Shown one piece after another: positions 2,201-35,531 of a stretch of 41,080 nt of DNA. The DNA is from a virus. The stretch lies in IMG/VR virus record IMGVR_UViG_3300037264_009889, positions 1-41,080 of that record; one strand, written 5' to 3'. Made by a program: the position numbers and the translations under genes. Position 1 is the first letter of the stretch. Each line of letters opens with the position of its first letter. The notes under the pieces are model-generated. The model saw nothing but the letters and a program-made list of their open reading frames with translations. It did no database searches and was not told the origin of the DNA.

Positions 2201-2500
2201 TTTGGTACATTTTATATGACCCAGAATAATATTTGTAAATGTTTTTATTGTGGCGAAGATTTTAAAGTTTCTCCCTCTGTTATGAAAAATGGAGGTAAAA
2301 AATTTTGTTCAATAAAGTGTAGCAGATTATTTAAATCTATTCTGAAATGTTTACAGTGCGGAAAAGAGTTTCGCGCAGAAAGATCAGCTAAAAGAAAATT
2401 TTGTTCTTTAAGTTGCTTTTATGAGTATACAAGAGAACATCCCAACAAAGTTAAACACGAAAATAACCGCAAATGTTTGTGTTGCGAAAAAGAGTTTTAT

Positions 2501-2793
2501 CTCACGGGGTTAAGGGGCCAAGAAGACCCCAGAGCGAAGGTCAAGAGACCTGAGACCCCCTCGCCCTTCAGGGTAGGGATGAATTGGCCCCTTAAAGGAT
2601 TACTTTCTTGCGCCTCCATCTTAAGCGAAAAGTATAAATATCATTAGGTCATATAGATATTGTTTGGTTTGTCTCTAGCAGTTGAAAAGACTCAAGAGAC
2701 GCTCACAAAACCACTCAAATAATTGGCCTGGGGCTACATGCCATCGGTTGAAAGGCCGTAGAAGCCCCATCCTTCAGGGTGGGGAGTAGTCAC
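2501..2793 (+). mobile_element. Solo IS200/IS605-type element (TnpB-less, omega-RNA bearing)
   Basis: A 293-bp insertion lies within the zinc-ribbon HNH gene. Its left flank is TTTTAT. A perfect 12-bp inverted repeat (2510-2521 with 2584-2595) forms a left-end hairpin. It then shares TTAAGCGAAA plus an adjacent TATA box (2621-2640) with the TnpB element (19494-19513). Its right end has the CTGGGGCTAC...CCGTAGAAGCCC scaffold and a terminal hairpin ending in GTAGTCAC, matching the right end of the TnpB element. No tnpA or tnpB is present, so it would need enzymes in trans. Boundaries are set by exact restoration of the host gene frame on excision. There is no target duplication, as is normal for this family. 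Confidence 0.85.
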
Positions 2794-2813
2794 TGTAATC
2801 CTGGCAATATCGA
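2720..2813 (+). ncRNA. Omega-RNA (reRNA) of the solo element, with guide into the HNH gene
   Basis: The scaffold resembles that of the TnpB element: CTGGGGCTAC at 2728-2737, CCGTAGAAGCCCC near 2757-2769, and a terminal hairpin CCCCATCC/GGGTGGGG. The element ends at 2793, so the guide would begin at 2794 (TGTAATCC...) and target the uninterrupted endonuclease gene next to TTAT. The RNA could be used in trans by the TnpB at 19542. Exact 5' and 3' ends are guesses. Confidence 0.6.
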
Positions 2814-3854
2814 AAGAGGCGGCGGAAAGTTCTGTAATAGAGATTGTTATGCTAAATACCAAACAAAAGCTCGAGTTAATAATTATGTTTGTGATTTTTG
2901 TGGTAAAGAAATTTTTATACGATCCTCTCGACTTAAAGTAAACAAGAACAGTTTTTGTTCCGAGAAGTGTGCTCATAAATTTTCTAAAATAGTGGCTAAA
3001 AGAGTGGTTAATAATTGTAAATGCTTATTTTGCGGGGAAGAATTTTATACTCCTCATTCTAGACTTTTATTGGGAGGCGGAAAATATTGTTCTAAGAAAT
3101 GCTCCTCTGATTCTAGATTAGGATTAAAGAAACTTAATTCTAATAATTGCAAGTGTTTAATTTGTGGTAAAGAATTTTATAGAAATCAGGCAAAAATAAA
3201 CCAATCTAAGAATGAATATTGTTCGAGAGAATGTTATGGGAAATCAAGGAGTGTGAAAAATATAGAAAATATGTGTAAGTTTTGTGGCAAGGTTATTAAT
3301 GTAATTCCTTCTAGGGCAAAAGATGGAAATGGGAAATATTGTTCAAATAAGTGTTATCGTGATGATCACAAAGCAATTCAAAGAATTTGTAAAATTTGCG
3401 GGGAAAGGGTTTTATTTAAGACCGTCTATAGTATCTAAAGGGCGAGGAATCTATTGTTCAAAGGTTTGTTATGTAAAAGATAAGACGGGAGCAGGAAATC
3501 CTAATTGGCGAGGAGGTCTTTCTTTTGAGCCTTATTGTCCCGAGTGGAACCCCGGATTAAGACGACGGATTCGAGCCTTTTTTAACTATGAATGTCTTTT
3601 GTGCGGAAAATCAACAGAAAAAAATGGTCAGCAACTCTCTTGTCATCATGTAGAGTACAACAAAATGGCGTGTTGCGACGGAAAGCCAGTTCAATTTGCA
3701 GCATTATGTCGTAGTTGCCACACGAAAACAAATTTTAATCGCGAGAGGTGGAGGACTTTGATTCACGCTATTATTGAAGAAGTTTACAATAATAGGTCGT
3801 ATTTTACAAAAGATGAATGGCGGGTGTTATGTGAAGTCTGAGTGTTCTTTTTAT

Positions 3855-4599: not shown

Positions 4600-5865
4600 A
4601 TGGCTCTTGAGAATAATTGCGTGTGCTTATATTGCGGGAAGGGGTTTCACGCACCGCCCTCTCATGTGAGTAAAAGAAAATATTGTTCAAAAGGGTGTCA
4701 ATATAATGCACAAAACGAAGAAACAAATTGTGCGTGTAAATGTTGCGGGAAAAGGTTTTATGTTACCCCGCTACACATAAATCCGAATGGGAATTATTGT
4801 TCTAATGAATGTAAATATAAGAGAAATTTTAATTGTAAATGTTTACGATGTGGAAAAGAATTTCGTGTATTTCCGTTGGTTAAAAGTATTGGAAAAGGCA
4901 AGTATTGTTCTAAAGAATGTATGGATAAAAGAGAAAATAATTGTAGATGTTTAAATTGTGGTAAAGAATTCTATAGAAATATCTCACATATGAATAAAGG
5001 ATCGGAAGATTTTTGTTGCTCTGATTGTTATTATGAGTATAGAGCAATATATCCGAAGAAAAAGGTTCATATAAATAATTGTAAATGTTTAAGGTGTGGA
5101 AAAGAATTTTATACTTATCTCTCTGGAATAAAGAGGGGTGGCGGAAAGTATTGTTCTCCAAAATGTAGAGGTAGAGAATCTAAAGTATTTAAATGTTTAA
5201 CGTGTGGTAAAGAATTTCAAAGAGGGCTTTCTTGGTTAAAGCGAGGTACGGTAAAGTATTGTTCTAGAGAATGTCGAAATAAGCGAGAGCGTCGAAATAA
5301 ACGAGAACTAAATTGTAAATGTGTCCAGTGTGGAAGAGAATTTCGCAGATCTCCGCGACAAATTGAGAATGGAGTTGGAAAATATTGCTCAAAAAATTGT
5401 CAAAACGAGGGGCACGAAAAAGTTAAGGGGACTTGTGAATTTTGTGGAAAAAAATTTTATAAATTTCGTTATAAAGAAAAAATAAACAGAGGGAAGTATT
5501 GTTCTAGGTCGTGTGCTAGAAAGGATAAGGTGGGTGAAAAGAGTCCAAGTTGGAGAGGAGGTTTAAGTTTTAAAAAATACTGTAAATTTTTTAATAATAC
5601 TTTTAAAGAGAAAATTAGAGAAAGGTTTGATAGAAATTGTTTTATGTGTAATAAATCTGAGCAAGAAAATGAACAAAGGCTTTCTGTACATCACATAGAT
5701 TATTTCAAAGCCTCTATATGCCGCGGGAGAGATTGGGCTTTTGTGCCATTGTGTAAGTCTTGTCACTCAAGAACGGGACACAATCGTTATGTTTGGTTTA
5801 ATTTATTAATTAATTATTGGGTTTTGAACCCCGAAATTAATTTAAGGTTGACTTTTAATATATAA
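4600..5865 (+). CDS. Zinc-ribbon array HNH homing endonuclease, intact
   Basis: This 421-residue protein should nick or cut DNA at a site that lacks the cassette. Residues 1-300 hold eight zinc-binding units of about 30-35 residues (pattern C-x2-C-GKEF...KYC-S-x2-C). A link (GEKSPSWRGGL) leads to an HNH nuclease domain with C-x2-C (NCFMCNKS), the catalytic His pair in SVHHIDY (about 365-366) and the second zinc pair CKSCHSRTGHNRY. The array probably reads DNA in a modular way, though this is inference. The stop codon TAA lies inside the right flanking direct repeat. Cassette 1 has the same eight-unit plan, so the number is conserved. Strong A-rich codon bias sets it apart from the structural genes. 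Confidence 0.8.
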   Translation: MALENNCVCLYCGKGFHAPPSHVSKRKYCSKGCQYNAQNEETNCACKCCGKRFYVTPLHINPNGNYCSNECKYKRNFNCKCLRCGKEFRVFPLVKSIGKGKYCSKECMDKRENNCRCLNCGKEFYRNISHMNKGSEDFCCSDCYYEYRAIYPKKKVHINNCKCLRCGKEFYTYLSGIKRGGGKYCSPKCRGRESKVFKCLTCGKEFQRGLSWLKRGTVKYCSRECRNKRERRNKRELNCKCVQCGREFRRSPRQIENGVGKYCSKNCQNEGHEKVKGTCEFCGKKFYKFRYKEKINRGKYCSRSCARKDKVGEKSPSWRGGLSFKKYCKFFNNTFKEKIRERFDRNCFMCNKSEQENEQRLSVHHIDYFKASICRGRDWAFVPLCKSCHSRTGHNRYVWFNLLINYWVLNPEINLRLTFNI

Positions 5866-7438: not shown

Positions 7439-8560
7439 ATGAGTGATGAAAATTATTCCAATATAATTCTTGAGGAAGCGGAAATTAAAAAACAAAAGAG
7501 GGATAAGATTAATGCTCAGCGAAGAGTTAGGAGGGCAAATCGGACGCAAGAAGAAAAAGAGATACAAAGAGAGAAAGATAGAAGTTATGCTAAAAAAAGA
7601 TTAGAAAAGTATAAAGATGAAATAAATACCAAGAGACGAGAAGATAGAAAGAACTGGACAAAAGAAAAATTGGAGCGCGTAAAAGAACGCGATAGAAAAT
7701 ATTATCAAGACCACAAAGATATAATAAAGTTAAGATCTGTAAATTGGTATAAAAACAATAAATCTAAAGCAAACGAAGGAGCTAAAGCTCGTTATATGGA
7801 AAATAGAGAGATGAGGATTGAATATCAAAAAAAATATTACAAGGATAATTTGGAATATTATACAGAATATAATAGAAACAGGTATTGGAATGATAGAGAT
7901 GGCGATTTAGCTAGAAGTCACGAGTATTATAAGGAAAACAAAGAAAGTATTTTAGAGTATCAAGCAAAATATTATCAAGAAAACAAAGAATATCTTATAG
8001 ATTATCAAAGAAAATATGTAAATGAGCTAAGAAATAAATTATATCAAATTCTCGGACCAAGGTGTGTTGTTTGTGGAATAGACGATTTACAGTTTTTAAC
8101 TGTTGATCATATTAACGATGATGGCGGACGGGACAGAGAGGAAAGAGGAGGTCTTCCGGGGCTGCTGAGATATTTAAGAGGAATAGACTGGAACGAAAAA
8201 TATATTAGGGAAAATCTTCAAATTTTATGCTATAACCATAATTGCGGAAAAGGGAGGAGATTATATCTAGACAAACCCGACAAAGAATTGAATCCAGGAG
8301 AAAGAAAAAATAGAAAACTTTTAACCGAGACGTTTAACTTTTTTGGTCCTTGTGAAGTCTGCGGGGAATCTGATTTACGTTACCTATCTATTGACCATCG
8401 GCATAATGACGGGGCTGAGTGCAGGAGAAATGGAGAGCCTGATGGACGGGATTTATATCAATATTTTCGAAATATAGGTTGGCCCGAAGATTTAAAACAG
8501 AAATATGGTTGTTTATGTTATAACCATAATTGTGGAAAGAACAGAGTAATTTATATTTAA
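7439..8560 (+). CDS. Double HNH endonuclease with charged repeat N-terminus
   Basis: This 373-residue protein has three parts. Residues 1-200 are highly charged, with repeats of the type KYYQENKEYLxDYQ that probably form a long helix for DNA or RNA contact. Residues about 208-275 form HNH unit 1 (CVVCG, the catalytic stretch TVDHINDD, then LCYNHNCGKG). Residues about 303-372 form HNH unit 2 (CEVCG, SIDHRHND, LCYNHNCGKN). Both units keep Cys pairs, DH and N-H-N-C residues. It is a paralogue of the minus-strand protein at 34677. It sits alone behind its own promoter, and its stop codon lies inside the next intergenic motif copy. This is the layout of a free-standing homing endonuclease between neck and tail genes. 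Confidence 0.75.
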   Translation: MSDENYSNIILEEAEIKKQKRDKINAQRRVRRANRTQEEKEIQREKDRSYAKKRLEKYKDEINTKRREDRKNWTKEKLERVKERDRKYYQDHKDIIKLRSVNWYKNNKSKANEGAKARYMENREMRIEYQKKYYKDNLEYYTEYNRNRYWNDRDGDLARSHEYYKENKESILEYQAKYYQENKEYLIDYQRKYVNELRNKLYQILGPRCVVCGIDDLQFLTVDHINDDGGRDREERGGLPGLLRYLRGIDWNEKYIRENLQILCYNHNCGKGRRLYLDKPDKELNPGERKNRKLLTETFNFFGPCEVCGESDLRYLSIDHRHNDGAECRRNGEPDGRDLYQYFRNIGWPEDLKQKYGCLCYNHNCGKNRVIYI

Positions 8561-17951: not shown

Positions 17952-18329
17952 ATGACAAAGAAAGAAAAGAAATTGGCGGAAGAAAAAACTGAAGAAGTGT
18001 TTGAATTAGAAGATGGAACCATTGTTAAAAAATTTTGTTTAAATCGTTTGTCTGACTCTATTTCTAATACCGAATCTCTTTGGGATATTCTGGATGTTTT
18101 AACTAAGATTACCAAACTAGATATCACTAAAGATAAGAATGGTTTTATAACTGAGGTAAAACTTGTTTTGCCTAGGGTTGACGAAGTTGTTGCTCAACTA
18201 GCTCTGAGAAATTTTACAACCTATCATTCCATAAGATTAAATGACCCCGATCTTTCGGCTGAGAATCTTTTAGAGATGAGAAGGGCTCAGTTACAAAAAG
18301 CAATTGACTCTCGCGGGAGCAAAGCGTGA
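17952..18329 (+). CDS. Hypothetical protein in tail operon
   Basis: A 125-residue acidic/basic mixed protein with a Lys/Glu-rich first 20 residues, a helical middle (SLWDILDVLTKITKLDITKDKNG) and a helical end (SAENLLEMRRAQLQKAIDSRG). No family recognised. Its stop overlaps the GTG start of the Dit-like gene by GTGA, so the two are translationally coupled. A chaperone or assembly role for the next protein is conceivable but not supported by any motif. Confidence 0.55.
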   Translation: MTKKEKKLAEEKTEEVFELEDGTIVKKFCLNRLSDSISNTESLWDILDVLTKITKLDITKDKNGFITEVKLVLPRVDEVVAQLALRNFTTYHSIRLNDPDLSAENLLEMRRAQLQKAIDSRGSKA

Positions 18330-19471
18330 CCAATAATTACCGCATTAACAGCCACGATAATGCTATATCGATCGAGCTTTCCCCATCGTATGGTATCTAC
18401 ATAACTGACGCAGTTTCATTTGATCCCTCTTCGAGTTTTGAAACTCAATCTTATTGGCATGGTACCCGAGTTTCTATTACCGATATTCAACCCAAACCCA
18501 CAAAAGTAGTCTTAAGAGGCCACGCGACCACAGAATCTGCGCTGAGGTCATTGGCTAAATATCATATAACTAATTATAATTGGAACGAAAACCCAGATGA
18601 GTTATATTTGGTAGTAGATCTATCAAAAAGATGGAAAATTCATGCCTTTGATTTTAATTATAGTCACGACCATCCCGGAATGCCATTTCCATTTAGTTTA
18701 ACAATTACTTTAAGTGAGATAGGCTCTGAAGGCTATGTTTTAACTTCTAAATCTGGATCGTCCGCTTCCTCCCCTATCGCCGTAACATCAATTGTAAATG
18801 CTGGAGATCAATTAGCCCTTTTTGATTCTATTTTAATAACAGGAACTTATTCGGGGGCCTCTAATCTTATTTCCCCAATTATTACTCACGCAAGTCTTGA
18901 ATATTTTATAGAAGTTACGGATGTTTTATTAGACACGGCATATTTTGAATTTTATAATGATTATACTGCAAAACACATATATTCCGACGCCTTTGTTAAC
19001 ACCAATGGGTTTACTCGGAATAAAAACACATCTACGAACGTAACCTTTAGTACCGATCACCTTATTATTGCGGCTAGTGGTACACTACAATACAAATTTC
19101 AATTAATTCATCCCCTTTTACAGGACCCGGTTTTGACTTTAACGACTGATACGGTGGTGGGAGTTCCCGCGATAGAAGTTTCCTCAGATGGAACTAATTG
19201 GTGGGAATGTGAAAAGGCTTTAACGTCAGGAAATTTAATTGATTATAATTTAACAAAACTTGCGGGTTCTAGTGATTTCTATTTTAGAATAACTACGGGA
19301 GCGAGCGCATCTCTACGTTTATCTTACATGAAATTGGTTTCCTGGCATAATTATAGTGGCCAAAAACCAATTCCTTATTTAAGAGCGGGCACAACAGAAC
19401 AACTAAATCTCTCGTTTTCGGCTGGAACTTTAGCTTATGTGATAAGCTATAGGGACAAGTGGAGTGCATGA
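18326..19471 (+). CDS. Dit-like distal tail protein, 3' end recoded by TnpB element
   Basis: A 381-residue tail protein. Residues 1-135 have a beta-rich fold of the distal-tail family (...PKPTKVVLRGHATTESALRSLA..., then FPFSLTITLSEIG), a central insert of beta-strands (about 150-345) fits a carbohydrate-binding insertion, and the chain ends LAYVISYRDKWSA. The start is GTG, coupled to the upstream gene. The last 11 codons (19439-19471) are not the native ones: a second set encoding the same ten residues and a stop lies at 20718-20750, after the TnpB element. The gene therefore remains full length despite the insertion. The Dit role is inferred from fold-like pattern and position; confidence in the 3' recoding is high. 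Confidence 0.6.
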   Translation: MTNNYRINSHDNAISIELSPSYGIYITDAVSFDPSSSFETQSYWHGTRVSITDIQPKPTKVVLRGHATTESALRSLAKYHITNYNWNENPDELYLVVDLSKRWKIHAFDFNYSHDHPGMPFPFSLTITLSEIGSEGYVLTSKSGSSASSPIAVTSIVNAGDQLALFDSILITGTYSGASNLISPIITHASLEYFIEVTDVLLDTAYFEFYNDYTAKHIYSDAFVNTNGFTRNKNTSTNVTFSTDHLIIAASGTLQYKFQLIHPLLQDPVLTLTTDTVVGVPAIEVSSDGTNWWECEKALTSGNLIDYNLTKLAGSSDFYFRITTGASASLRLSYMKLVSWHNYSGQKPIPYLRAGTTEQLNLSFSAGTLAYVISYRDKWSA

Positions 19472-19505
19472 GGTTCCCGTTTCAAGGAGCCTTTTAAGCG
19501 AAAGG

Positions 19506-19513
19506 TTTAAATA
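19506..19513 (+). promoter_or_regulatory. TATA box of tnpB
   Basis: GCGAAAGG-TTTAAATA is placed 28 bp before ATG 19542, so the transcript should start close to the start codon. The solo element at 2501 has the same TTAAGCGAAA block and TATA box (2633-2640). Confidence 0.6.
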
Positions 19514-19541
19514 CTATGTGGTATATAATACCAAGAGTCCT

Positions 19542-20684
19542 ATGTTAAAGAAAACTTACAAATTCAGGATTTTTCCTTCTAAGGAACAAATTCGTATCAT
19601 GAACGATATACTTGACCTTTGTAGGTGGACCTATAATCAAACCTTGGCATATAGGAAGAACCTTTGGGAAACTGAGCAGAAAAATACATCTAAGTACGAT
19701 TCTCATTATTTGCTCCCTATTTGGAAACAGGAAAGGCCGGAGCTAAAGAACGTATTTTCTCAGGTACTCCAAAATGTTCAGGAAAGAGTAGATTTGGCTT
19801 TTCAAGCATTCTTCCGTAGAGTAAAGGCCCACGAAAATCCAGGCTATCCTAGGTTCAAAGGAAAGGGCTGGTATGACAGCTTCACCTATCTCCAATCTGG
19901 ATTTGGACTTAAAAATGATAAGATTCTTTGGCTCTCTAAGATCGGAGAAATCAAGATAAATCTTCATAGAAAAATCGAAGGCGTGATAAAAAGACTCACG
20001 GTTAATCGGTCTACACGAGGAAAATGGTATGTGTCTTTTTCTGTGGAACAACAGTCAAATTGCAATTTGACTGAAATCCTTGAACCTCAGATTTCACACA
20101 GCGACTTAGTTACTGGCGTCGATCTTGGCTTGACCAGCTTCGCAACTTTCTCGGACGGTAACAAAATTGAGAACCCCAGGTTCTTTAGAACTGAAGAAAA
20201 AATACTCTCTAAAACCCAATCTAAAAGAGATAAGTTGCCGAAAGGTTCATTGGAGAGGAATAAAGTAACTAAGGTTGTACAAAGAATTCACGAGAGAATT
20301 GCCAATAAAAGATTGAATTTTGCTCATCAACTCAGTCATGATTTGGTGGAAAAATATGGAATTCTTTGCTTTGAAGATTTGGATATAAAAGGTATGGCTC
20401 AGACTGCTCCGCGCAGTCTAGCTAAGAGCATAAGTGACGCTTCTTGGAATATTCTGGTAAGACTAACACAGTACAAGGCTGAAAGTGCCGGTTCTGTAGT
20501 CGTTTTAGTAGACCCAAAGAATACGTCCCAGATGTGCTCAAGGTGTGGCGTGATTGTACCGAAAGATCTTTCTGTTCGAGTTCATAAATGTTCTTGTGGA
20601 TTAGAAATGGACAGAGATCAAAACGCTGCATTAAACATACTGAGACTGGGGCTACAGTCTCTCGGGTCACTAACCGATCCGTAG
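19542..20684 (+). CDS. tnpB: TnpB RNA-guided nuclease
   Basis: A 380-residue RuvC-type nuclease of the TnpB family (ancestor of Cas12), guided by an omega-RNA made from its own 3' region. The N-terminal KTYKFRIFPSKEQ and the helical WED/REC part are followed by RuvC motifs with Asp194 in GVDLGLTSF, Glu278 in LCFEDLDIKG and Asp359 in MDRDQNAALN. Four zinc-ligand cysteines are in MCSRCG...HKCSCG (332-352). All catalytic residues are present, so it is probably active. ATG 19542 is chosen because family members begin M-x-K-x-YKFRI and because the TATA box fits; an in-frame GTG at 19464 would lie upstream of the promoter. No TnpA partner is encoded in the window. Confidence 0.92.
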   Translation: MLKKTYKFRIFPSKEQIRIMNDILDLCRWTYNQTLAYRKNLWETEQKNTSKYDSHYLLPIWKQERPELKNVFSQVLQNVQERVDLAFQAFFRRVKAHENPGYPRFKGKGWYDSFTYLQSGFGLKNDKILWLSKIGEIKINLHRKIEGVIKRLTVNRSTRGKWYVSFSVEQQSNCNLTEILEPQISHSDLVTGVDLGLTSFATFSDGNKIENPRFFRTEEKILSKTQSKRDKLPKGSLERNKVTKVVQRIHERIANKRLNFAHQLSHDLVEKYGILCFEDLDIKGMAQTAPRSLAKSISDASWNILVRLTQYKAESAGSVVVLVDPKNTSQMCSRCGVIVPKDLSVRVHKCSCGLEMDRDQNAALNILRLGLQSLGSLTDP

Positions 20685-20737
20685 AAGCCCACATGCTTTA
20701 GCTGTGGGAGTGGTCACGTGATTAGTTATAGAGATAA
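20640..20737 (+). ncRNA. Omega-RNA (reRNA) with 20-nt guide into the Dit-like gene end
   Basis: The RNA overlaps the tnpB 3' end. CTGGGGCTAC (20650-20659) can pair with GTAGAAGCCC near 20684, and the terminal hairpin CCCACA/TGTGGG is followed by GTGGTCAC ending at 20717. The next bases (20718-20737, starting GTGATTAG) are the guide, copied from the native end of the Dit-like gene. The 5' end is not fixed. Confidence 0.7.
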
Positions 20738-20750
20738 ATGGTCGGCGTAA
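20718..20750 (+). other. Orphaned native 3' end of the Dit-like gene (guide source)
   Basis: Eleven codons in phase encode VISYRDKWSA and stop, identical in protein to the end of the gene at 18326. Codons differ from the recoded copy for Ile (ATT/ATA), Ser (AGT/AGC), Arg (AGA/AGG), Asp (GAT/GAC), Lys (AAA/AAG), Ser (TCG/AGT), Ala (GCG/GCA) and stop (TAA/TGA); Arg, Asp and Lys follow the unchanged Tyr, and Val and Trp are also unchanged. Confidence 0.9.
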
Positions 20751-21617: not shown

Positions 21618-24341
21618 ATGACTAAAAACTGGTCGCGGTTCCCGTTGGCCGAACCAATAGGGGAAGATTTAGCTAATTTTTCTGCTTATAGGTTATACGA
21701 GAGGTCTGCTATTGCGGGCTATGGAGTTTTAAGTGGATGTGTGGTTACAAGAACCAGCGTGAATGAAGTGGCCGCGGCTAGTGGGGTTTTTACAGTTTCA
21801 GGAGTATCAAAAACGTTTGCGGGCGCAAACATAACTAGCATTGCTGCCACAGCAGCTACAAAACATCGTTATGATTTAATTTATATTGATGGCGCGGATT
21901 TAACTTTAAAAACTGAGCTTGGTGTAGAAGAAGTTCCCGATAGTGCCCTTGATTTTCTTGAAAACTATCATCCTCGTCCAGCAGAGCCTACAGATACTGA
22001 TTGGATTATATTAGCTATTGTTAGAGTTACGGATGCTGGAATAACTGATACCGAGTTTGGATCGGTTGTTTATGCTCAGGATAGTATAGCCGATATGCGG
22101 TTAGGCCCCGCTCTTGCAGTAGATGATGTTACACTTCAAGTTATTAGTGGTGTGGCTTCTGTAAAATCTATGGCTGGACATGCATCAACTCACGTATCTG
22201 GTGGCGGGGATTCAATAAAATTGGATGATTTGGCTTCTCCGGAAAATAATACAGATTTAAATGTTTCTGCCGTGGCCCATGGTCTTTGTCCTATATTTCC
22301 CAATAATGCTACAACCTGGCTTCGTGGAGACGGGACTTATACTGCGGTGACGGCATCGAGTCTTTTATTGGGCGCTAATTGTGATGTTGGAAGTTATAAA
22401 ATTACGGCGCTTCAATTTGAGTCTGATATAGCAACTGGCGTTGGCGCTCCGTTTGTTGTGGCAAGCACAGCTAAAGTAACAAATTTAAATTCTGATACAT
22501 TGGATGGACTGCACGACACTTCTTTTATTAAAGCTGCGGGAACTGTGGGTCTTGCGGCGGATTGGGATGTTGGAAGTTATAAAATTACGGCGCTTCAATT
22601 TGAGTCTGATATAGCAACTGGCGTTGGCGCTCCGTTTGTTGTGGCAAGCACAGCTAAAGTAACAAATTTAAATGCAGACTCAGTAGACGGAAACAACATG
22701 GATACCGTCACCACGAAAGGCGATCTCCTCATAGGTTCAGGTGCGGGTGATCTGGACAGACTTGGCGTGGGTGCTAATGGTCTAATACCTATAGCAGCTT
22801 CTGGCGAGACAGTAGGAATAAAATGGGCGGTTGCCTACGCATATGCCCCCGCCCATTACGAAAGATCGAGGATGTGGAAGAACAAGGGTAGCGACAGCGC
22901 CGCCAACCGCAGGACGCTGGTCACGCCGGATTTCCTCACCGTCAATGTCAACAATGTAGGCTATGCGCTTCTCGCGGCCTTGGAGTTAGATCTGGATGCT
23001 GATACCGGGGTCTGGGATACTCTCGTAGGCACTGATTATTCGACCGCAGCCAACCGCGCTGGGAAGGACTTCTACGTCTACGCATGTACTCCTGTATCGG
23101 GCAGCGTGCCGGTGATCCTGGTTTCGGCGGCCACGACTTTTCCATCAGGTTATGCCGCGAACACCTCCCGCAAGATAGGCGGCTTCCATTGCGAATGCTA
23201 TGCAGTCGGCACGATTGCGGGGCACGCCCTGACCGGCTACTTGGCTGGAGACATTCTACCTCGTTCTGTCTGGGACTTGCAGCATCGCTCCGCAGGCCCA
23301 CAGGTAGGGATGGTCTGGGCAGGGAAGACAGATTTCGATTCTGCCTTTTACGGGGCCACTATCTGGGTGGCAATTTACCTGGCGTCGGGCACGGGCGCTT
23401 CGACAACTTCAGTGAACGGCGGCACGATCTCGGATACCAGAAACTGGATGGATTTCGTTGATGATTTCGCGGCTATCGGTTGCAGGATGCTTGAGGATGA
23501 TGAGTTCCAGGCGATAGCGGCAGGGTCAAACGAGGAATGCAATATAGCGACCGGCGCAGATCCAGCAACTACGGGAGGGCATACCGCTTATGAGCTGCTA
23601 ACTCTTGATGTAGCTCCTGGCGGGGGAGGCTGGGCGGCAGGGGATTATATCATAGGGGCCACATCCACATTTTCATGCAAAATAGTGCAAGTTCTGTCTA
23701 CAACGACTTATATCGTGAAAAACAGGACGGGCGCATTTACGCTCGGTGAGGTTTTGAACAACTCGGAACTGCTGACGCTTGATGTAGCTCCCGCAAATCC
23801 GTATTGGTCCGTAGGAAACACTATCACTGGTGCCTCAAGCGGGAAGTCTTGTGTCATCCTGGAAGTGCTTACGAACCTAACCTACGCAGTGAAATTGCGG
23901 AATGGCAACTTCACAGCAGGAGAAATCCTGAGCAACGGGACCACTACAGCAGATCAGGGTGGTGCTCATCCAACAGTTACCACCACCATTGCGGCTGACC
24001 AGGGGGAAACTCGCCCCATTGTTGCGCTCGACTATACTTATGGCGGGCGGATGATATCATACATAGGTTGCGAAGACTGCTGCGGCGCGATGTGGCAGTG
24101 GCTTCGGACCCAGAGTTTCCGGTCCGATGATGTGACTGGATGGGGAGGGTATGATCTACCAGGCGCAAAAGGCTCGCTCTATAACCAGGATGGAGCTGGC
24201 GGAGTGGCAGACATCAAGCTGCTCGCCGGCGGCGTTTGGGGTGACGGTGCGGCTTGCGGGTCGCGGTGTCGGGGTGCGCATAACTATCGCTGGGCTGCGG
24301 CTTCTGTTATCGGCGGTCGTTTCTGTGCCGAACCTTCTTAG
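21618..24341 (+). CDS. Tail fibre with C-type-lectin domain and DGR variable region
   Basis: A 907-residue receptor-binding protein. Residues 1-200 look like a fibre base. Residues about 255-360 contain two copies of a FESDIATGVGAPFVVAST fibre repeat (exact 108-bp DNA duplication). Residues about 415-900 match the C-type-lectin targets of diversity-generating retroelements: SVWDLQHRS, RMISYIGCEDCCGAMWQW and the end GGVWGDGAACGSRCRG...GGRFCAEPS. Two similar inserts (ELLTLDVAP..., near 657-715 and 716-775) sit in a loop. The variable region is followed at once by an 8-bp hairpin, as in known DGRs. Base composition becomes clearly more GC-rich from about 22700, pointing to exchange of the distal part. 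No reverse transcriptase or template repeat is in the window. Confidence 0.8.
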   Translation: MTKNWSRFPLAEPIGEDLANFSAYRLYERSAIAGYGVLSGCVVTRTSVNEVAAASGVFTVSGVSKTFAGANITSIAATAATKHRYDLIYIDGADLTLKTELGVEEVPDSALDFLENYHPRPAEPTDTDWIILAIVRVTDAGITDTEFGSVVYAQDSIADMRLGPALAVDDVTLQVISGVASVKSMAGHASTHVSGGGDSIKLDDLASPENNTDLNVSAVAHGLCPIFPNNATTWLRGDGTYTAVTASSLLLGANCDVGSYKITALQFESDIATGVGAPFVVASTAKVTNLNSDTLDGLHDTSFIKAAGTVGLAADWDVGSYKITALQFESDIATGVGAPFVVASTAKVTNLNADSVDGNNMDTVTTKGDLLIGSGAGDLDRLGVGANGLIPIAASGETVGIKWAVAYAYAPAHYERSRMWKNKGSDSAANRRTLVTPDFLTVNVNNVGYALLAALELDLDADTGVWDTLVGTDYSTAANRAGKDFYVYACTPVSGSVPVILVSAATTFPSGYAANTSRKIGGFHCECYAVGTIAGHALTGYLAGDILPRSVWDLQHRSAGPQVGMVWAGKTDFDSAFYGATIWVAIYLASGTGASTTSVNGGTISDTRNWMDFVDDFAAIGCRMLEDDEFQAIAAGSNEECNIATGADPATTGGHTAYELLTLDVAPGGGGWAAGDYIIGATSTFSCKIVQVLSTTTYIVKNRTGAFTLGEVLNNSELLTLDVAPANPYWSVGNTITGASSGKSCVILEVLTNLTYAVKLRNGNFTAGEILSNGTTTADQGGAHPTVTTTIAADQGETRPIVALDYTYGGRMISYIGCEDCCGAMWQWLRTQSFRSDDVTGWGGYDLPGAKGSLYNQDGAGGVADIKLLAGGVWGDGAACGSRCRGAHNYRWAAASVIGGRFCAEPS
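22383..22490 (+). repeat. 108-bp direct repeat in fibre gene, copy 1
   Basis: Identical to 22566-22673, 183 bp (61 codons) apart and in the same frame. It encodes DVGSYKITALQFESDIA and the rest of a fibre unit. Exact identity implies very recent duplication or gene conversion. Confidence 0.9.
22566..22673 (+). repeat. 108-bp direct repeat in fibre gene, copy 2
   Basis: Identical to 22383-22490. The bases just after the two copies differ (TCTGATAC versus GCAGACTC), and the second copy leads into the GC-rich distal fibre part. Confidence 0.9.
24210..24326 (+). other. Candidate DGR variable region (VR)
   Basis: Encodes the ligand-binding loop of the C-type-lectin domain, from about KLLAGGVWGDGA to GGRFCAEP. 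Residues between the fixed GG-W, CGSR and GGR-EP positions are those normally diversified by adenine-specific mutation from a template repeat. The exact left border cannot be set without the template. Confidence 0.65.
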
Positions 24342-24380: not shown

Positions 24381-24400
24381 ACGAAAGCATATCAGTGGAT

Positions 24401-24973
24401 ATGAAAACCTGCAAAGTTAAGGGATGCGGCGGCAAAGTCCACGCCAGAGGATACTGCCACAAGCATTGGCAACAGTTATACCGATCCGGTAAAGTTCTTG
24501 AAAGAACGAGATACGACAAGGCCGTAATAAAAATAGACGGCGTAGCGGCCCATATCATGATTCACGACAAAAGAGAGAATCCGTATGAAGAGACAATTAT
24601 CGATGTTGAAGATGTGCCGAAGGTTGAAAATTTCAAATGGCATATTCAGAGCAAAGGATATGTCTCTAGTAAGAAAGCCGGACTATTGCACAGGCTCATT
24701 ATCGGGGCAGAACCAGCGCAGCTAGTTGATCACATCAACAGAAACAAGCTTGATAATCGAAAGGCGAATCTGCGAATAGCCTCGCGGTCAGAAAATGTCC
24801 GCAACTCAAAAATCCCTATAACAAATACCACGGGCACCAAAGGAGTTTGCTTCCACAGAGGTACAAGAAAGTGGGAGGCGTTCATAAACAAAGACGGAAA
24901 GTGTATTCGCAAATTGTTTGAGAATATCGAGGATGCTATCAAATTCAGGAAAGAACTGGAGGCAAATTCGTGA
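24401..24973 (+). CDS. HNH-AP2 homing endonuclease
   Basis: A 190-residue protein: an N-terminal zinc-binding stretch (CKVKGCGGKVHARGYCHKHW), a central HNH_3-type nuclease (LLHRLIIGAE..., then VDHINRNKLDNRKANLRIAS with catalytic His and the terminal Asn/Arg) and a C-terminal AP2 DNA-binding domain (TGTKGVCFHRGTRKWEAFIN...DAIKFRKEL). This order is typical of phage and intron homing endonucleases. The ATG is used rather than the GTG six bases upstream because it lies closer to the expected transcript start. It stands 60 bp after the DGR target gene, in GC-rich DNA like the distal fibre, so both may have arrived together. It overlaps the next gene by 4 bp. Confidence 0.85.
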   Translation: MKTCKVKGCGGKVHARGYCHKHWQQLYRSGKVLERTRYDKAVIKIDGVAAHIMIHDKRENPYEETIIDVEDVPKVENFKWHIQSKGYVSSKKAGLLHRLIIGAEPAQLVDHINRNKLDNRKANLRIASRSENVRNSKIPITNTTGTKGVCFHRGTRKWEAFINKDGKCIRKLFENIEDAIKFRKELEANS

Positions 24974-27733: not shown

Positions 27734-29521
27734 ATGACATGGGACAATCAAACAGCTATTGAGGGCCGTCTAGGAATAGCCGTTGAAACCACCGAAGGTA
27801 CGGCTATGACTGAGCCCTCTATTGAGTTATTTGTTAATGCAGGAAGCGCTCCTGAGCTTGACTTAACTCCTGATACGAAAATTAAAAATAAAGCATTTAA
27901 CGAACCCTACAAGAGAAGTGAAGAACGTGGGTATTGGCATACCGAAGGAAATCTCCCAGGTCTGAAGTTTTCGCCAAGCAACGGAATTCCTGAGTTCTTA
28001 GAAGTTGGATTCGGAAATGATTGGTACTCCGGACTTGTTTATACTCTTGCGGTAGTGGATGGAACTGCATTTACACGAGGAAATATTATTTTTGGAGCTA
28101 CTTCTTTGGCTAGAGCGGAAGTCGTTCGCGTTGTAACTAATACTCTTTGGCTTACTGGTGTTCAAGGAACGTTTAGTGCGAGTGAAGATATATATCATGC
28201 TCCGAGCGTAACAGACTATGGCACCAATACTGGCGGAGGAACTCCCCAGACGGTCAGGACGGGCTATTACTGTCATAAGCTAGACGCTGTAAGAAACGGA
28301 AGTAACATCGGCGTAGTGAGGGTACACACGGTCTCAGCGGCAGCCTGCCTAGCAGATCCAATGAGAGATTTCTCAGAGTGGGGCGTATCTACAGGAAAAA
28401 AGAAAGTGTTTGTAACCGTTAAAGATGCGGTCTCTGTTCCCATCTCTGGTTGGATGGGTGCTCCATGCATGAAGGTTGCCTTCAAAACGGGTTCAGCAAC
28501 ATTTGCTGTTGGAGCAAAACTAAAAATTGGCGCAACTGTTATAGGGACAATAACTTCGTTTACAGTGACAAGTGGAGCTTGGACTGGAGATGCAGCAGGA
28601 TACCTGTTTGTAACCCCCGATGCAACCGCAAGAGCAATTGTTGACGGAGAGACTTTAATTGATGATGATGGAAGTCCTGCCGCGGCGGTTGCAGATCAAG
28701 CTACTATCCCCGCATATCTTAATAACGCCGTCATGATTCACAATATCCCTGATGCATCTGGCTCAACGCAGGCTTATAATGGAAATGTGACAACTTTTGC
28801 TGAGGAAGGGGTTTTAACTTATAGCGCAGTTCAAAGAACCTTTGATCAGAAGTCTATGACCGTGTTTTCGAAGAATGCGGGTGATGCTACACAGATAGGC
28901 ACCGGAACCAAGATCAAAGAAATTGCCTTCGATATTACCGCAGATAGCTATGCTTATAATGTGGGAATCCTTGGCAGAAACATATCATATCCCGCAACTG
29001 AGCCTGCATATCCAGGTGGCATAACTGACTCTGCGGCGTTTGGTTCGTCTGCAAGAACTTTTGAAATTGACGGGTTAACTACTGGTCAAGCAGCTCAAGT
29101 TAACAGAGCTAGATTCTCAGCAACCTGGGACTTCGCGGTGGCTAAAGGTCAGGTAATCTCTGAAAATTTCCCCACAACTTTGCAGCCAACGACTTATAAC
29201 ATTATAGGCACCTTAGATCTTCAGTGGAAGAGCAACGCTATGCTGAAAACCTTCTGGAATGCTCCTTCTGGAACAGCGCCAGCCGCCGGAACTCTTGTTA
29301 CCAAAAGAATTGCGTTCCTGTTAGATTCTGGGGAGGTCGTAACCGCAGGTTATAACAAGATGTTGGCTATTGAGGTTCTAGGAACAATTGATTCCGCAAC
29401 CTTGAATCGCGACGCAGATGGTTATATCCAACCCGTGACTATAGAAGCATATATGATGGACGATACTTATCTTTGGGGTCCTGGACGCTTCTATATCTTC
29501 GATGGAACAGCTACGCATTAG
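27734..29521 (+). CDS. Major tail tube protein-like, paralogue 1
   Basis: This 595-residue protein begins TAIEGRLGIAVETTEGTA and has GYWHTEGNLPGLKFSPSNGI, a pattern found in phage tail tube proteins in which an N-terminal hairpin precedes the 'EGNLP' barrel. The rest is beta-rich. The end (GTIDSATLNRDADGYIQPV, TIEAYMMDD) is conserved with the next gene. Short, recurrent GA-TSLARAEVVRVV-type segments in the middle look like small inserted surface domains. No other tail tube candidate exists in the window, which supports the role. The start ATG follows AAAGGTGATTAACTAA. Confidence 0.6.
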   Translation: MTWDNQTAIEGRLGIAVETTEGTAMTEPSIELFVNAGSAPELDLTPDTKIKNKAFNEPYKRSEERGYWHTEGNLPGLKFSPSNGIPEFLEVGFGNDWYSGLVYTLAVVDGTAFTRGNIIFGATSLARAEVVRVVTNTLWLTGVQGTFSASEDIYHAPSVTDYGTNTGGGTPQTVRTGYYCHKLDAVRNGSNIGVVRVHTVSAAACLADPMRDFSEWGVSTGKKKVFVTVKDAVSVPISGWMGAPCMKVAFKTGSATFAVGAKLKIGATVIGTITSFTVTSGAWTGDAAGYLFVTPDATARAIVDGETLIDDDGSPAAAVADQATIPAYLNNAVMIHNIPDASGSTQAYNGNVTTFAEEGVLTYSAVQRTFDQKSMTVFSKNAGDATQIGTGTKIKEIAFDITADSYAYNVGILGRNISYPATEPAYPGGITDSAAFGSSARTFEIDGLTTGQAAQVNRARFSATWDFAVAKGQVISENFPTTLQPTTYNIIGTLDLQWKSNAMLKTFWNAPSGTAPAAGTLVTKRIAFLLDSGEVVTAGYNKMLAIEVLGTIDSATLNRDADGYIQPVTIEAYMMDDTYLWGPGRFYIFDGTATH

Positions 29522-29540: not shown

Positions 29541-31688
29541 ATGACATGGGAAAATCCAACAGCCATTGAAGGTCGCGTCGGAATAGCAATTGAGACTACA
29601 GAGGGTACGGCAGAAGCCGAACCCTCTATTGAGCTGTTCGTTAATTCAGGAAGTGCCCCCGAACTTGATTTAACACCCGATACTAAAATCAAAAATAAAG
29701 CCTATAACGAACCCTACAAGCGAAGTGAAGAGCGCGGATACTGGCATACTGAGGGCAATCTCCCTGGCATGAAGTTTTCTCCGTCTAACGGAATTCCTGA
29801 GTTCTTGGAAGTTGGGTTCGGAAATGATTGGTATTCTAAACCAATTTATAAGTATATAGTTGCTTCTGGCGGCGGAACTTCATTTACTAGAGGTGATAAA
29901 GTTTTTGGTCGAACTTCTCTAGCTAGAGGAGAAGTAGCTCGCGTTGTAACAGATACTCTGTGGCTTACTGGAGTTCAAGGAACTTTCGCAAATAGTGAAG
30001 ATCTATTAAAAGCTCCAGGCGGCATAGACTACAAGATCAATGCACACGGAACAAGCGGATTCGGAGCTGTTGCGAGTTATTACTGTCATAAGTTAGATGC
30101 GGTTAGAAATTTTTCTCAAACAGACACTCCGGCGACACTTACGACCGCAAAAGCTGGTAACAAAGATTTAACTTTCAAGGCTTTGGTTGATGGAGATGCG
30201 GGTGAAGCTATTTCAATAACTTGTGTTGTTGCTGGAGCAAACACTGCTTTCTCTATAAGCGTCTCGGGTAATGATATTACTATTAACAGCGCGACAGACG
30301 GAGATTCGTTGGCAACAAGCCTTGCATCGGCAATTCTCACTGCGCTTAATGCGGATGCTGCCGCGAACTTATTAATTTATACCGCTCTTGCTGATGGAAG
30401 CTCTGGTGTAGGTATTTTTGGGGCTTTAACTCACACTCACCTAACTCATGCAAGAACTCCCGTTCGAGTCGGGTCTGTGGCAACCAAGGCTTGCTTAGGA
30501 GATCCAATGGTGGATTTCTCTGAGTATGGAGTTACCGCAGCAAGCAAGAAAAAAGTGTTTGTAACCGTTAAAGATGCAACTGCAACTCCTATTCCCATCT
30601 CTGGTTGGATGGGTGCGCCCTGCATGTTAGTCACTTTTGATACTGGTTCTGCGGTATTTACTGTAGGTCAGAAGCTGTCCGCTAAGACTGGGGCAGGAGA
30701 CGCCGTTGTTATTGGAACTATCATAGATTTTATAGTTACTGATAATGCGGGCTGGGGCGGAACTACGGGAGGCTATCTGTTTGTTGAACAGGACGCTACC
30801 GCAAGAACTATTCTAGATAATGACACCCTAACTTCTCCAGTTTCTGGTGCTGCGGCGGCTAATGTCCCAACTATTCCCGCATATCTTAACAACGCGGTTC
30901 AGATCTATGATATTCCAGATGATTCGGGTTATGCTAAATCCTGGAATGGAGATGTTGCGACCTTCGATGAAACCGACTCTTTAACATACGATGCGGTTCA
31001 GAGAACTTTCGACCAGAAGTCTTTGTCTGTGTTTATTAAAGATGCGGGCGATGCTACAAAGGTTGGAAACGGCGTTAAGATCAAAGAGATTGCTTTCGAT
31101 ATTACCGCAGATAGCTATGCTTACAATGTTGGCCTTCTTGGAAGAAACATATCATATCCAACAACCGAACCCGCATATCCAGGCGGTATAACTGACTCTG
31201 CTGCGTTTGGTTCATCTTCTAGAACATTTGAAATCGATGGATCGACTTCTGGTCAAGCTGCGCAGGTGAACAGGGCTAGATTCTCTGCAACCTGGGACTT
31301 TGCGCCTGCCAAAGGAGTTGTAATCTCTGAAAATTATCCAACAACTTTGCAGCCCACTACTTATAACATTATAGGCACCCTAGATCTTCAGTGGAAGAGC
31401 AATGCTATGCTAAAAGCTTTCTGGAATAACCCATCTGGAATTGTACCAGCCGCAGGCGAGCTTATTACAAAAAGGCTTGCGTTCCTGCTAGATTCCGGAG
31501 AGGTTGTAGCAACGGGTTATAACAAGGTTTTATCTATCGAGGTTTTAGGGACAATTGATTCGGCAACTCTGAATCGCGATGCAGATGGGTATATCCAGCC
31601 TGTAACTATCGAGGCGTATATGATGGATGATACTTATATTTTCGGTCCAGCGCGGTTCTATTTATTTGATAACGTGGCTACGCACTAG
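29541..31688 (+). CDS. Major tail tube protein-like, paralogue 2 with inserted domain
   Basis: This 715-residue protein is closely similar along its whole length to the preceding protein. The difference is an insert at residues about 192-308 (TLTTAKAGNKDLTFKALVDG, IYTALADGSSG), a domain type common as an add-on in phage tail and capsid proteins. Tandem duplication followed by domain gain or loss explains the pair. Possible roles are two tube subunits, or a tube and a decorating or tip ring. It starts 19 nt after the first paralogue (GGATGGTGAA ribosome site) and ends at a strong terminator. Confidence 0.6.
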   Translation: MTWENPTAIEGRVGIAIETTEGTAEAEPSIELFVNSGSAPELDLTPDTKIKNKAYNEPYKRSEERGYWHTEGNLPGMKFSPSNGIPEFLEVGFGNDWYSKPIYKYIVASGGGTSFTRGDKVFGRTSLARGEVARVVTDTLWLTGVQGTFANSEDLLKAPGGIDYKINAHGTSGFGAVASYYCHKLDAVRNFSQTDTPATLTTAKAGNKDLTFKALVDGDAGEAISITCVVAGANTAFSISVSGNDITINSATDGDSLATSLASAILTALNADAAANLLIYTALADGSSGVGIFGALTHTHLTHARTPVRVGSVATKACLGDPMVDFSEYGVTAASKKKVFVTVKDATATPIPISGWMGAPCMLVTFDTGSAVFTVGQKLSAKTGAGDAVVIGTIIDFIVTDNAGWGGTTGGYLFVEQDATARTILDNDTLTSPVSGAAAANVPTIPAYLNNAVQIYDIPDDSGYAKSWNGDVATFDETDSLTYDAVQRTFDQKSLSVFIKDAGDATKVGNGVKIKEIAFDITADSYAYNVGLLGRNISYPTTEPAYPGGITDSAAFGSSSRTFEIDGSTSGQAAQVNRARFSATWDFAPAKGVVISENYPTTLQPTTYNIIGTLDLQWKSNAMLKAFWNNPSGIVPAAGELITKRLAFLLDSGEVVATGYNKVLSIEVLGTIDSATLNRDADGYIQPVTIEAYMMDDTYIFGPARFYLFDNVATH

Positions 31689-34676: not shown

Positions 34677-35531
34677 CTATCTATATTGTCTCCCACAATT
34701 GCAACACCAGCACTCCAAACAAAAATCTTCCTTTAAAGATTCGGGCCAACCCATTTTTCGAAATTTAATTAATAAAGCCTGACCCATACTTTCTCCGTTT
34801 CTTCTCCGTTCTGCGCCATCGTTGTGAACGTGAGATATTGTTAAAAATTTAAGGTCAGATATCCCGCAGTCACATGGACCGAAAAATTTAAAGGCCTCTT
34901 TCCAAATCTTAGACCTACCTCGTTGAGATCTGGTTTGTTTTTCAAAAGGTAGGTCTAAATATTCCCTTGTTCGGGAACTGTTGTGGTTCCAGCAAAGAAC
35001 TTGGAGATTCTTTAGTTCTACTTCGGTTAGCTTTTCTCTAATTATCGCTTGATGTAAACGCCCAGAAGATCTTCCGTCTATTTTTCGATAATAACCACCC
35101 TTTCCGTCAACGTGATCTATTGTTAAGTGACTTATATCTTCGTCCCCGCAGATTACACATTTACAACCGCCTATTAACTTGAGGGCTTCGATTTTTAAAC
35201 TTAAATTATACTTCTTTTGATATTCCCTCGCCTCATCTTTATGTAAATCTCTATACTCTTTGTTGCGTGGCGTAATCCAATCTTTGTTTTCTTTATAATA
35301 TTCTTTACCCCACGCAAGTTTTTTCTCTTTTCGATTTAAATAGTGTTGTTTAGATGATTCGTTAACTTTTTCTCTATGCTCGTCTCTCCACCTTTCAACG
35401 AGGTATTTAACTCGCTCTGGATTATTTTTTCTCCATTGTTTTAAATATTCGGCCCTTTTAGCTTTTTGTTCTTCGGTATAAATTCTTTTCTTTTTAACCT
35501 TAATTTCTTGAATTGGTATCTTTTCCTCCAA
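34677..35531 (-). CDS. Double HNH endonuclease, second unit degenerate
   Basis: A 284-residue paralogue of the protein at 7439. It has a charged N-terminal 110 residues (RAEYLKQWRKNNPERVKYLV, KKLAWGKEYYKENKDWI), HNH unit 1 (CKCVICGDEDISHLTIDHVD, then VLCWNHNSSRTREY) and unit 2 (GPCDCGISDLKFLTISHVHND, then LECWCCNCG). Unit 2 has lost one Cys of the first pair, the Asp before the key His (SH instead of DH), and the His of the N-H-N-C stretch, so only unit 1 is likely active. It lies 31 nt downstream of an RHH gene on the same strand and abuts terL, a common place for homing genes. Confidence 0.75.
   Translation of the reverse strand: MEEKIPIQEIKVKKKRIYTEEQKAKRAEYLKQWRKNNPERVKYLVERWRDEHREKVNESSKQHYLNRKEKKLAWGKEYYKENKDWITPRNKEYRDLHKDEAREYQKKYNLSLKIEALKLIGGCKCVICGDEDISHLTIDHVDGKGGYYRKIDGRSSGRLHQAIIREKLTEVELKNLQVLCWNHNSSRTREYLDLPFEKQTRSQRGRSKIWKEAFKFFGPCDCGISDLKFLTISHVHNDGAERRRNGESMGQALLIKFRKMGWPESLKEDFCLECWCCNCGRQYR

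Follow-up and report, generated by a model that had tools for sequence, protein, structure and literature searches.

Our analysis suggests that the TnpB element of a 41,080-base virus record (IMGVR_UViG_3300037264_009889; this whole stretch of DNA is called the window) is an immobilised element of the IS200/IS605 type that persists by RNA-guided homing and rescues the gene that it enters, a reading that we consider rather probable. The element interrupts a tail-region gene 33 nucleotides (nt) before its stop, with its left junction at 19438/19439 and its right end at 20717, and the lost gene end is replaced by a silently reworded version just inside the left junction. The features of the locus are as follows.

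18326-19471, + strand: tail-region structural gene, now closed by element-borne codons (from the list of open reading frames; the IMG/VR contigs L002 and L003 carry an uninterrupted homologue whose site is empty).
19435-19438, + strand: TTAT, putative target-adjacent motif (TAM) at the left, CTTAT in context.
19439-19471, + strand: reworded gene end, VISYRDKWSA and stop, differing silently from the native copy at 10 positions.
19472-19491, + strand: remnant of the left tip of the transposon, GGTTCCCGTTTCAAGGAGCC; about 15 of its 20 positions agree with CTCCCCATTTCAAGAAGACC in a related virus; left-end hairpin absent.
19499-19513, + strand: archaeal promoter of tnpB, resembling the B recognition element and TATA box (BRE/TATA-like; CGAAAGGTTTAAATA), with the same motif 5' of tnpB in the related locus L004.
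19542-20684, + strand: tnpB, 380 amino acids (aa), from Pfam matches, alignment, catalytic residues and substitution rates.
20600-20717, + strand: predicted region of the omega-RNA scaffold, shared in part with the end of tnpB; its terminal hairpin (20684-20717) ends in GTGGTCAC.
20718-20737, + strand: predicted omega-RNA guide (GTGATTAGTTATAGAGATAA), directly 3' of the conserved right tip.
20718-20750, + strand: native 3' end of the interrupted gene, VISYRDKWSA and stop, colinear with the empty site of L002 and L003.

The two 33-nt copies of the gene end are both in frame and both translate to VISYRDKWSA followed by a stop, as the initial annotation of this DNA had described. With the start of the guide as position 1, they differ at 10 of 33 nt (6, 9, 15, 18, 21, 25, 26, 27, 30 and 32). 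This affects eight of 11 codons (seven sense codons and the stop), with no residue changed; the codons common to both copies are Val GTG, Tyr TAT and Trp TGG. The initial annotation had counted nine differing codons, which is one too many; its observation that the differences are synonymous, including Ser AGT against TCG, and that all residues and the stop are retained is correct. Thus, the copies share 70% of their DNA and 100% of their protein sequence, and the duplicate begins exactly at the guide junction. Since only about 6 of the 30 sense sites are synonymous and change has nevertheless been silent throughout, the left copy must have been maintained as coding sequence. To gauge chance resemblance, mismatched left and right pairs were drawn across 158 TnpB loci. 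The highest anchored score obtained in 3000 trials was 36, compared to 56 at the window element, and in a separate all-frame test the highest score in 400 trials was 55, compared to 59 observed. Note that the label 'Dit-like', previously given to the interrupted gene, could not be confirmed: its product has no Pfam or PHROG match, and its predicted structure, with a mean confidence score (pLDDT) of 35, is uninformative.

Which of the copies is native is revealed by relatives with an empty site. In L002 and L003 the gene is uninterrupted, its protein is 66% identical, and synteny extends over much of the tail region; genomes with the element (window) and without it (L002/L003) thus exist for the same site. 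The gene end in these contigs reads GAT ATA AAG TAT AGA GAT AAA TGG TCG GTA TAA. Its codons AGA GAT AAA TGG TCG are also those of the right copy, while the left copy differs at four of these five. Moreover, the stop in L002 is followed by the intergenic sequence TATATAATTCATATTTTTAAAATATG, and in the window this sequence stands 3' of the right copy. The right copy is therefore the native one, and the left copy is derived and belongs to the element. Had the empty-site relatives carried the reworded codons throughout, simple recombination with a divergent allele would have been indicated; they carry native-type codons. A search for further homologues of the structural gene returned only L002 and L003.

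The junction with the native copy coincides with the predicted start of the guide. Family members at 66 loci have a right end made up of GAAGCC, a hairpin and GGAGTnnTCAC, after which unrelated flank begins at once. The hairpin at the tip covaries (293 of 366 cells paired, compared to a mean of 233 and a maximum of 256 in shuffles), and the fold of the omega-RNA region has a z of -1.87. Since the conserved tip stops exactly at 20717, the guide would correspond to the native gene end from 20718, in agreement with the initial annotation. The TnpB of ISDra2 uses a guide of about 16 nt of transposon-adjacent DNA and cuts matched targets beside a TAM (PMC8612924). We infer that a guide of roughly 16-20 nt, starting at 20718, directs TnpB to the native gene end.

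The proposal that TTAT is the motif adjacent to the target is plausible, given what precedes other insertions of the family. One of these lies in the window itself:

2501-2793, + strand: tnpB-less element resembling a palindrome-associated transposable element (PATE), with left-end hairpin, promoter and right-end hairpin, after TTTTAT in an HNH gene.

The ends of this element are fixed by a 92% identical copy at a different site in virus G003. The element independently supports both the TAM and the element ends. The sequences 5' of the family insertions are AGTTTTAT (2501-2793 element), ATATTTAT (G003 copy) and ATCTTTAT (TnpB in G001 and G002), and TTTAT recurs in all three; the main element is preceded by TAGCTTAT. 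From this recurrence, the TAM is likely TTTAT, with CTTAT at the main element. The HNH-type gene (2216-3441) is split by the PATE-like element, and joining its flanks gives an open frame (..EKEFY followed by CNPGNIERGGGKFC..); the G003 copy likewise lies inside an open frame. In G002 and G001, which represent the empty-site virus, the related TnpB occupies the last 250 bases of the contigs (L289 and L290, respectively), where it is intergenic, follows CTTTAT and has an intact left-end hairpin; both contigs end inside tnpB.

On the left side of the window element the order is TAM, reworded gene end, left-tip relic, promoter, tnpB. Upstream of tnpB, most close relatives have a left-end hairpin of the GCCC..TTTAG..GGGATGAAT type. 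This hairpin is missing in the window element and in L004, while the right-end hairpin of the window element is present. A search of the record with the Y1_Tnp model found no tnpA, in keeping with the initial annotation; the control search matched in 5 of 14 genomes. With neither a Y1 transposase in the record nor a left-end hairpin, TnpA-type mobility in cis has been lost.

TnpB itself has kept its catalytic residues. tnpB is the sole substantial gene between 19439 and 20717, and the element has no integrase. The protein matches the Pfam OrfB_IS605 domain and the C-terminal zinc-finger domain Cas12f1-like_TNB (E values of 1e-19 and 5e-22), and the RuvC catalytic D, E and D (GVDLGL, CFEDL, DRDQNA), in the conserved regions of D194, E278 and D359, are present together with the zinc-finger cysteines. 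Compared to its closest relative, L004 (an 89% relative, with 91% protein identity across tnpB), nonsynonymous divergence (dN) is 0.056 and synonymous divergence (dS) 0.58, a dN/dS of about 0.1; TnpB has thus been under purifying selection since the split from L004.

We looked for gene-end duplicates in both orientations, with a calibrated search that spanned viral contigs, species genomes and phages and covered about 190 TnpB loci. Such a scan had been proposed at the outset, and it produced one further case besides the window element. In this locus, L062 (1976-3725), a gene end of 26-27 codons stands on both sides of tnpB, 48-50% identical in protein. Comparison with three relatives places the start of the duplicate at the right tip (..GAATGTCAAA followed by GAACTACG..), and the left and right ends differ heavily in their first 20 nt. 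Because the TnpBs of L062 and the window are only about 40% identical, the arrangement, rare as it is, probably arose twice. Searches for empty sites of L062 and L004 found nothing useful, and no convincing N-terminal or opposite-strand version of the duplicate was seen among the surveyed loci. Several candidates were discarded: L004, whose right flank has no similar gene end; L024, a tandem TnpB remnant; L119, L152, L144 and L176, which are DNA repeats; and L279 and L282, multi-copy non-coding phage repeats. The last two belong to Lactobacillus phages; the long non-coding repeats on either side of these TnpBs are about 90% identical and recur several times in the phage genomes near tRNA genes. 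In L004, the gene upstream of tnpB (4703-5029) closes in codons adjoining the element promoter (..EEFKRKV*), possibly a third type of gene closure.

Taken together, we propose the following cycle. The element, of IS200/IS605 ancestry, has lost its TnpA-dependent left end. When a co-infecting relative brings an empty allele, with TTAT and the native end, TnpB would cut that allele, and recombination with the element-bearing genome through the flanking homology would copy the element into the break. The invaded gene would stay whole through the silently coded last 11 codons that the element places before its left tip. The occupied allele would escape cutting, as the reworded copy differs from the guide at positions 6, 9, 15, 18 and 21. 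If TnpB is active, the rescue has to be reworded, since a faithful copy of the native end would itself offer a perfect target. At the left junction TTAT is kept, with four mismatches in the 20 nt of the guide (6, 9, 15 and 18, exactly as first reported, position 21 differing too), and the right junction has no TTAT; the occupied junctions are therefore likely to be immune to TnpB.

The homing reading had been the central claim of the initial annotation. It is strengthened by the guide junction, the TAM, the mismatches and the native-type codons of the empty relatives, and also by the loss of the left-end hairpin, the purifying selection on tnpB and the existence of L062. Several observations weigh against it. 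The empty sites of L002 and L003 have ATAT and 5 of 20 mismatches to the guide; no empty allele turned up that offers a perfect target, and hence no homing event is documented. The closest relative, L004, has no recognisable gene-end duplicate, and two cases in about 190 loci do not make a general TnpB strategy. The reading also does not account for the way in which the reworded codons came to the left end. In addition, single mismatches remove most of the editing efficiency of an archaeal TnpB at weak TAMs, but some are tolerated at a strong TAM (PMC11043419), so that immunity of the left junction is only an expectation.

The strongest alternative, to which we give slightly less than an even chance, is that the left copy is a captured divergent allele: the insertion truncated the gene, and recombination with a distant virus later restored a gene end joined to the left tip, the silent differences being ordinary divergence. 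The codon comparison would suit this, as only two of nine degenerate codons agree between the copies, compared to 48% codon agreement between the window and L002 at the same residues (p about 0.11), and in L062 the two ends differ in protein as well (48-50% identity). Set against it is the identity of all 10 residues and of the stop position, since 10 of 10 would be expected in only about 2% of cases at about 67% identity, and L002 has 7 of 10. Moreover, a search of IMG/VR with the pattern ISYRDKW found no virus with the reworded end. Note that capture concerns the origin of the codons more than their function, and such an element may still home. Selection and capture as sources of the reworded codons are mutually compatible and inseparable on present data.

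An inactive fossil is unlikely, in our view: the insertion would be old, the gene repaired on a single occasion and TnpB now inert, so that the arrangement would have no function. The degenerate left end, the missing tnpA and the motif CTTAT instead of TTTAT are what such a fossil would have; the intact catalytic residues, the dN/dS of about 0.1 since the L004 split, the preserved promoter and covarying omega-RNA tip, and the unspoiled guide region are not.

Domestication of the TldR kind, in which the virus would keep TnpB as an RNA-guided repressor or a weapon against competitors and not as a spreading element, strikes us as improbable. TldRs are devoid of the RuvC residues, all three of which the window TnpB has, and its guide matches the local flank, as in mobile TnpBs. 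In favour of domestication, phage-encoded TldR proteins exist (PMC13418256), and interference competition can be a role of a homing nuclease in a virus (PMC11620839). Finally, chance, a simple direct repeat or an assembly artefact is very hard to credit: DNA repeats around TnpB do occur (L024, L119, L152, L176, L279 and L282), but these are near-identical or non-coding, unlike a duplicate of such different DNA and protein identity at the guide junction, and the observed score, well above the anchored null maximum, refutes chance, assembly error excepted.

The virus probably infects methanogenic archaea. The nearest non-viral TnpBs are those of Methanothrix, Methanotrichaceae and other Methanosarcinales or related methanogens. 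Among viruses, a relative with 56% identity is present in vir525, which is a Methanosarcinales virus. Together with the BRE/TATA-like promoters (nine such motifs on the + strand of the window, compared to 1.55 in shuffles), these relatives make an archaeal, methanogen host likely. The window has other features of interest. It holds many free-standing HNH genes for one virus (4600-5865, 7439-8560, 24395-24973 and 34677-35531), and none of these has a gene-end duplicate. The protein encoded at 21618-24341 has an Mtd second domain and is a possible target of a diversity-generating retroelement, with an HNH gene directly 3'; no reverse transcriptase was noticed among the open reading frames of the window. 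Two adjacent paralogous structural genes (27734-29521 and 29541-31688; 595 and 715 aa) both match the same gene of a related virus.

Elements that have tnpB but lack tnpA are very common, and their persistence calls for an explanation. If our proposal is true, RNA-guided homing with gene rescue gives a direct and testable answer for their persistence. The targeted gene looks essential; the guide is its end, and the element brings the silently coded replacement. Viruses would then have evolved the design of synthetic home-and-rescue drives, including the targeting of a 3' end, which keeps the rescue short. More broadly, we see an even chance that natural home-and-rescue drives exist, in which viral RNA-guided homing elements of at least two lineages (window and L062) exchanged transposition for reworded codons of the target gene, keeping both its function and their immunity. 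Similar elements could be sought by a simple signature, the duplication of a gene end at the tip of the omega-RNA.

The components of this arrangement are known individually. Our literature search, which covered open-licence papers only, returned no account of TnpB elements that reword a gene end, nor of a natural RNA-guided element in which the components are combined. With the IS200/IS605 TnpB elements (ISDra2 type; OMEGA nucleases) the window element shares the TnpB fold, the catalytic residues, an omega-RNA at the right end with a flank guide, the left TAM and the absence of target duplication; it differs from them in having neither tnpA nor left-end hairpin and in the reworded gene end between TAM and left tip. 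The PATEs of haloarchaea (PMC3119063) share fused IS605-type ends and the lack of target duplication with the separate 2501-2793 element, and this likeness does not concern the element with the gene-end duplication. IStrons make an IS605/TnpB insertion harmless to the invaded gene by self-splicing (PMC4227781); harmless insertion is the likeness, but the window has no Rfam match at the gathering threshold, and no intron was found. Prophages that integrate into gene ends, such as e14 in icd, provide the invaded gene with a new 3' end and leave the old one as a displaced duplicate (PMC6379469); prophages of this type use a site-specific integrase and att sites, with no guide RNA, whereas the window element has no integrase. 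An IS200/605 TnpB can act as a plasmid gene drive, eliminating empty copies and favouring element-bearing replicons (PMC11870625). That drive has no rescue of the target gene, whereas the window element targets a viral structural gene whose function must be preserved. A further parallel is HomeR, an engineered home-and-rescue drive that targets a 3' coding end and carries 22 or 27 re-coded aa downstream of the cut under the native promoter of the target (PMC7968924). HomeR is man-made, Cas9-based and works in an insect; the 3'-end target, the recoded codons and the native promoter are common to both, with a rescue of 10 aa in the window and of 26-27 in L062.
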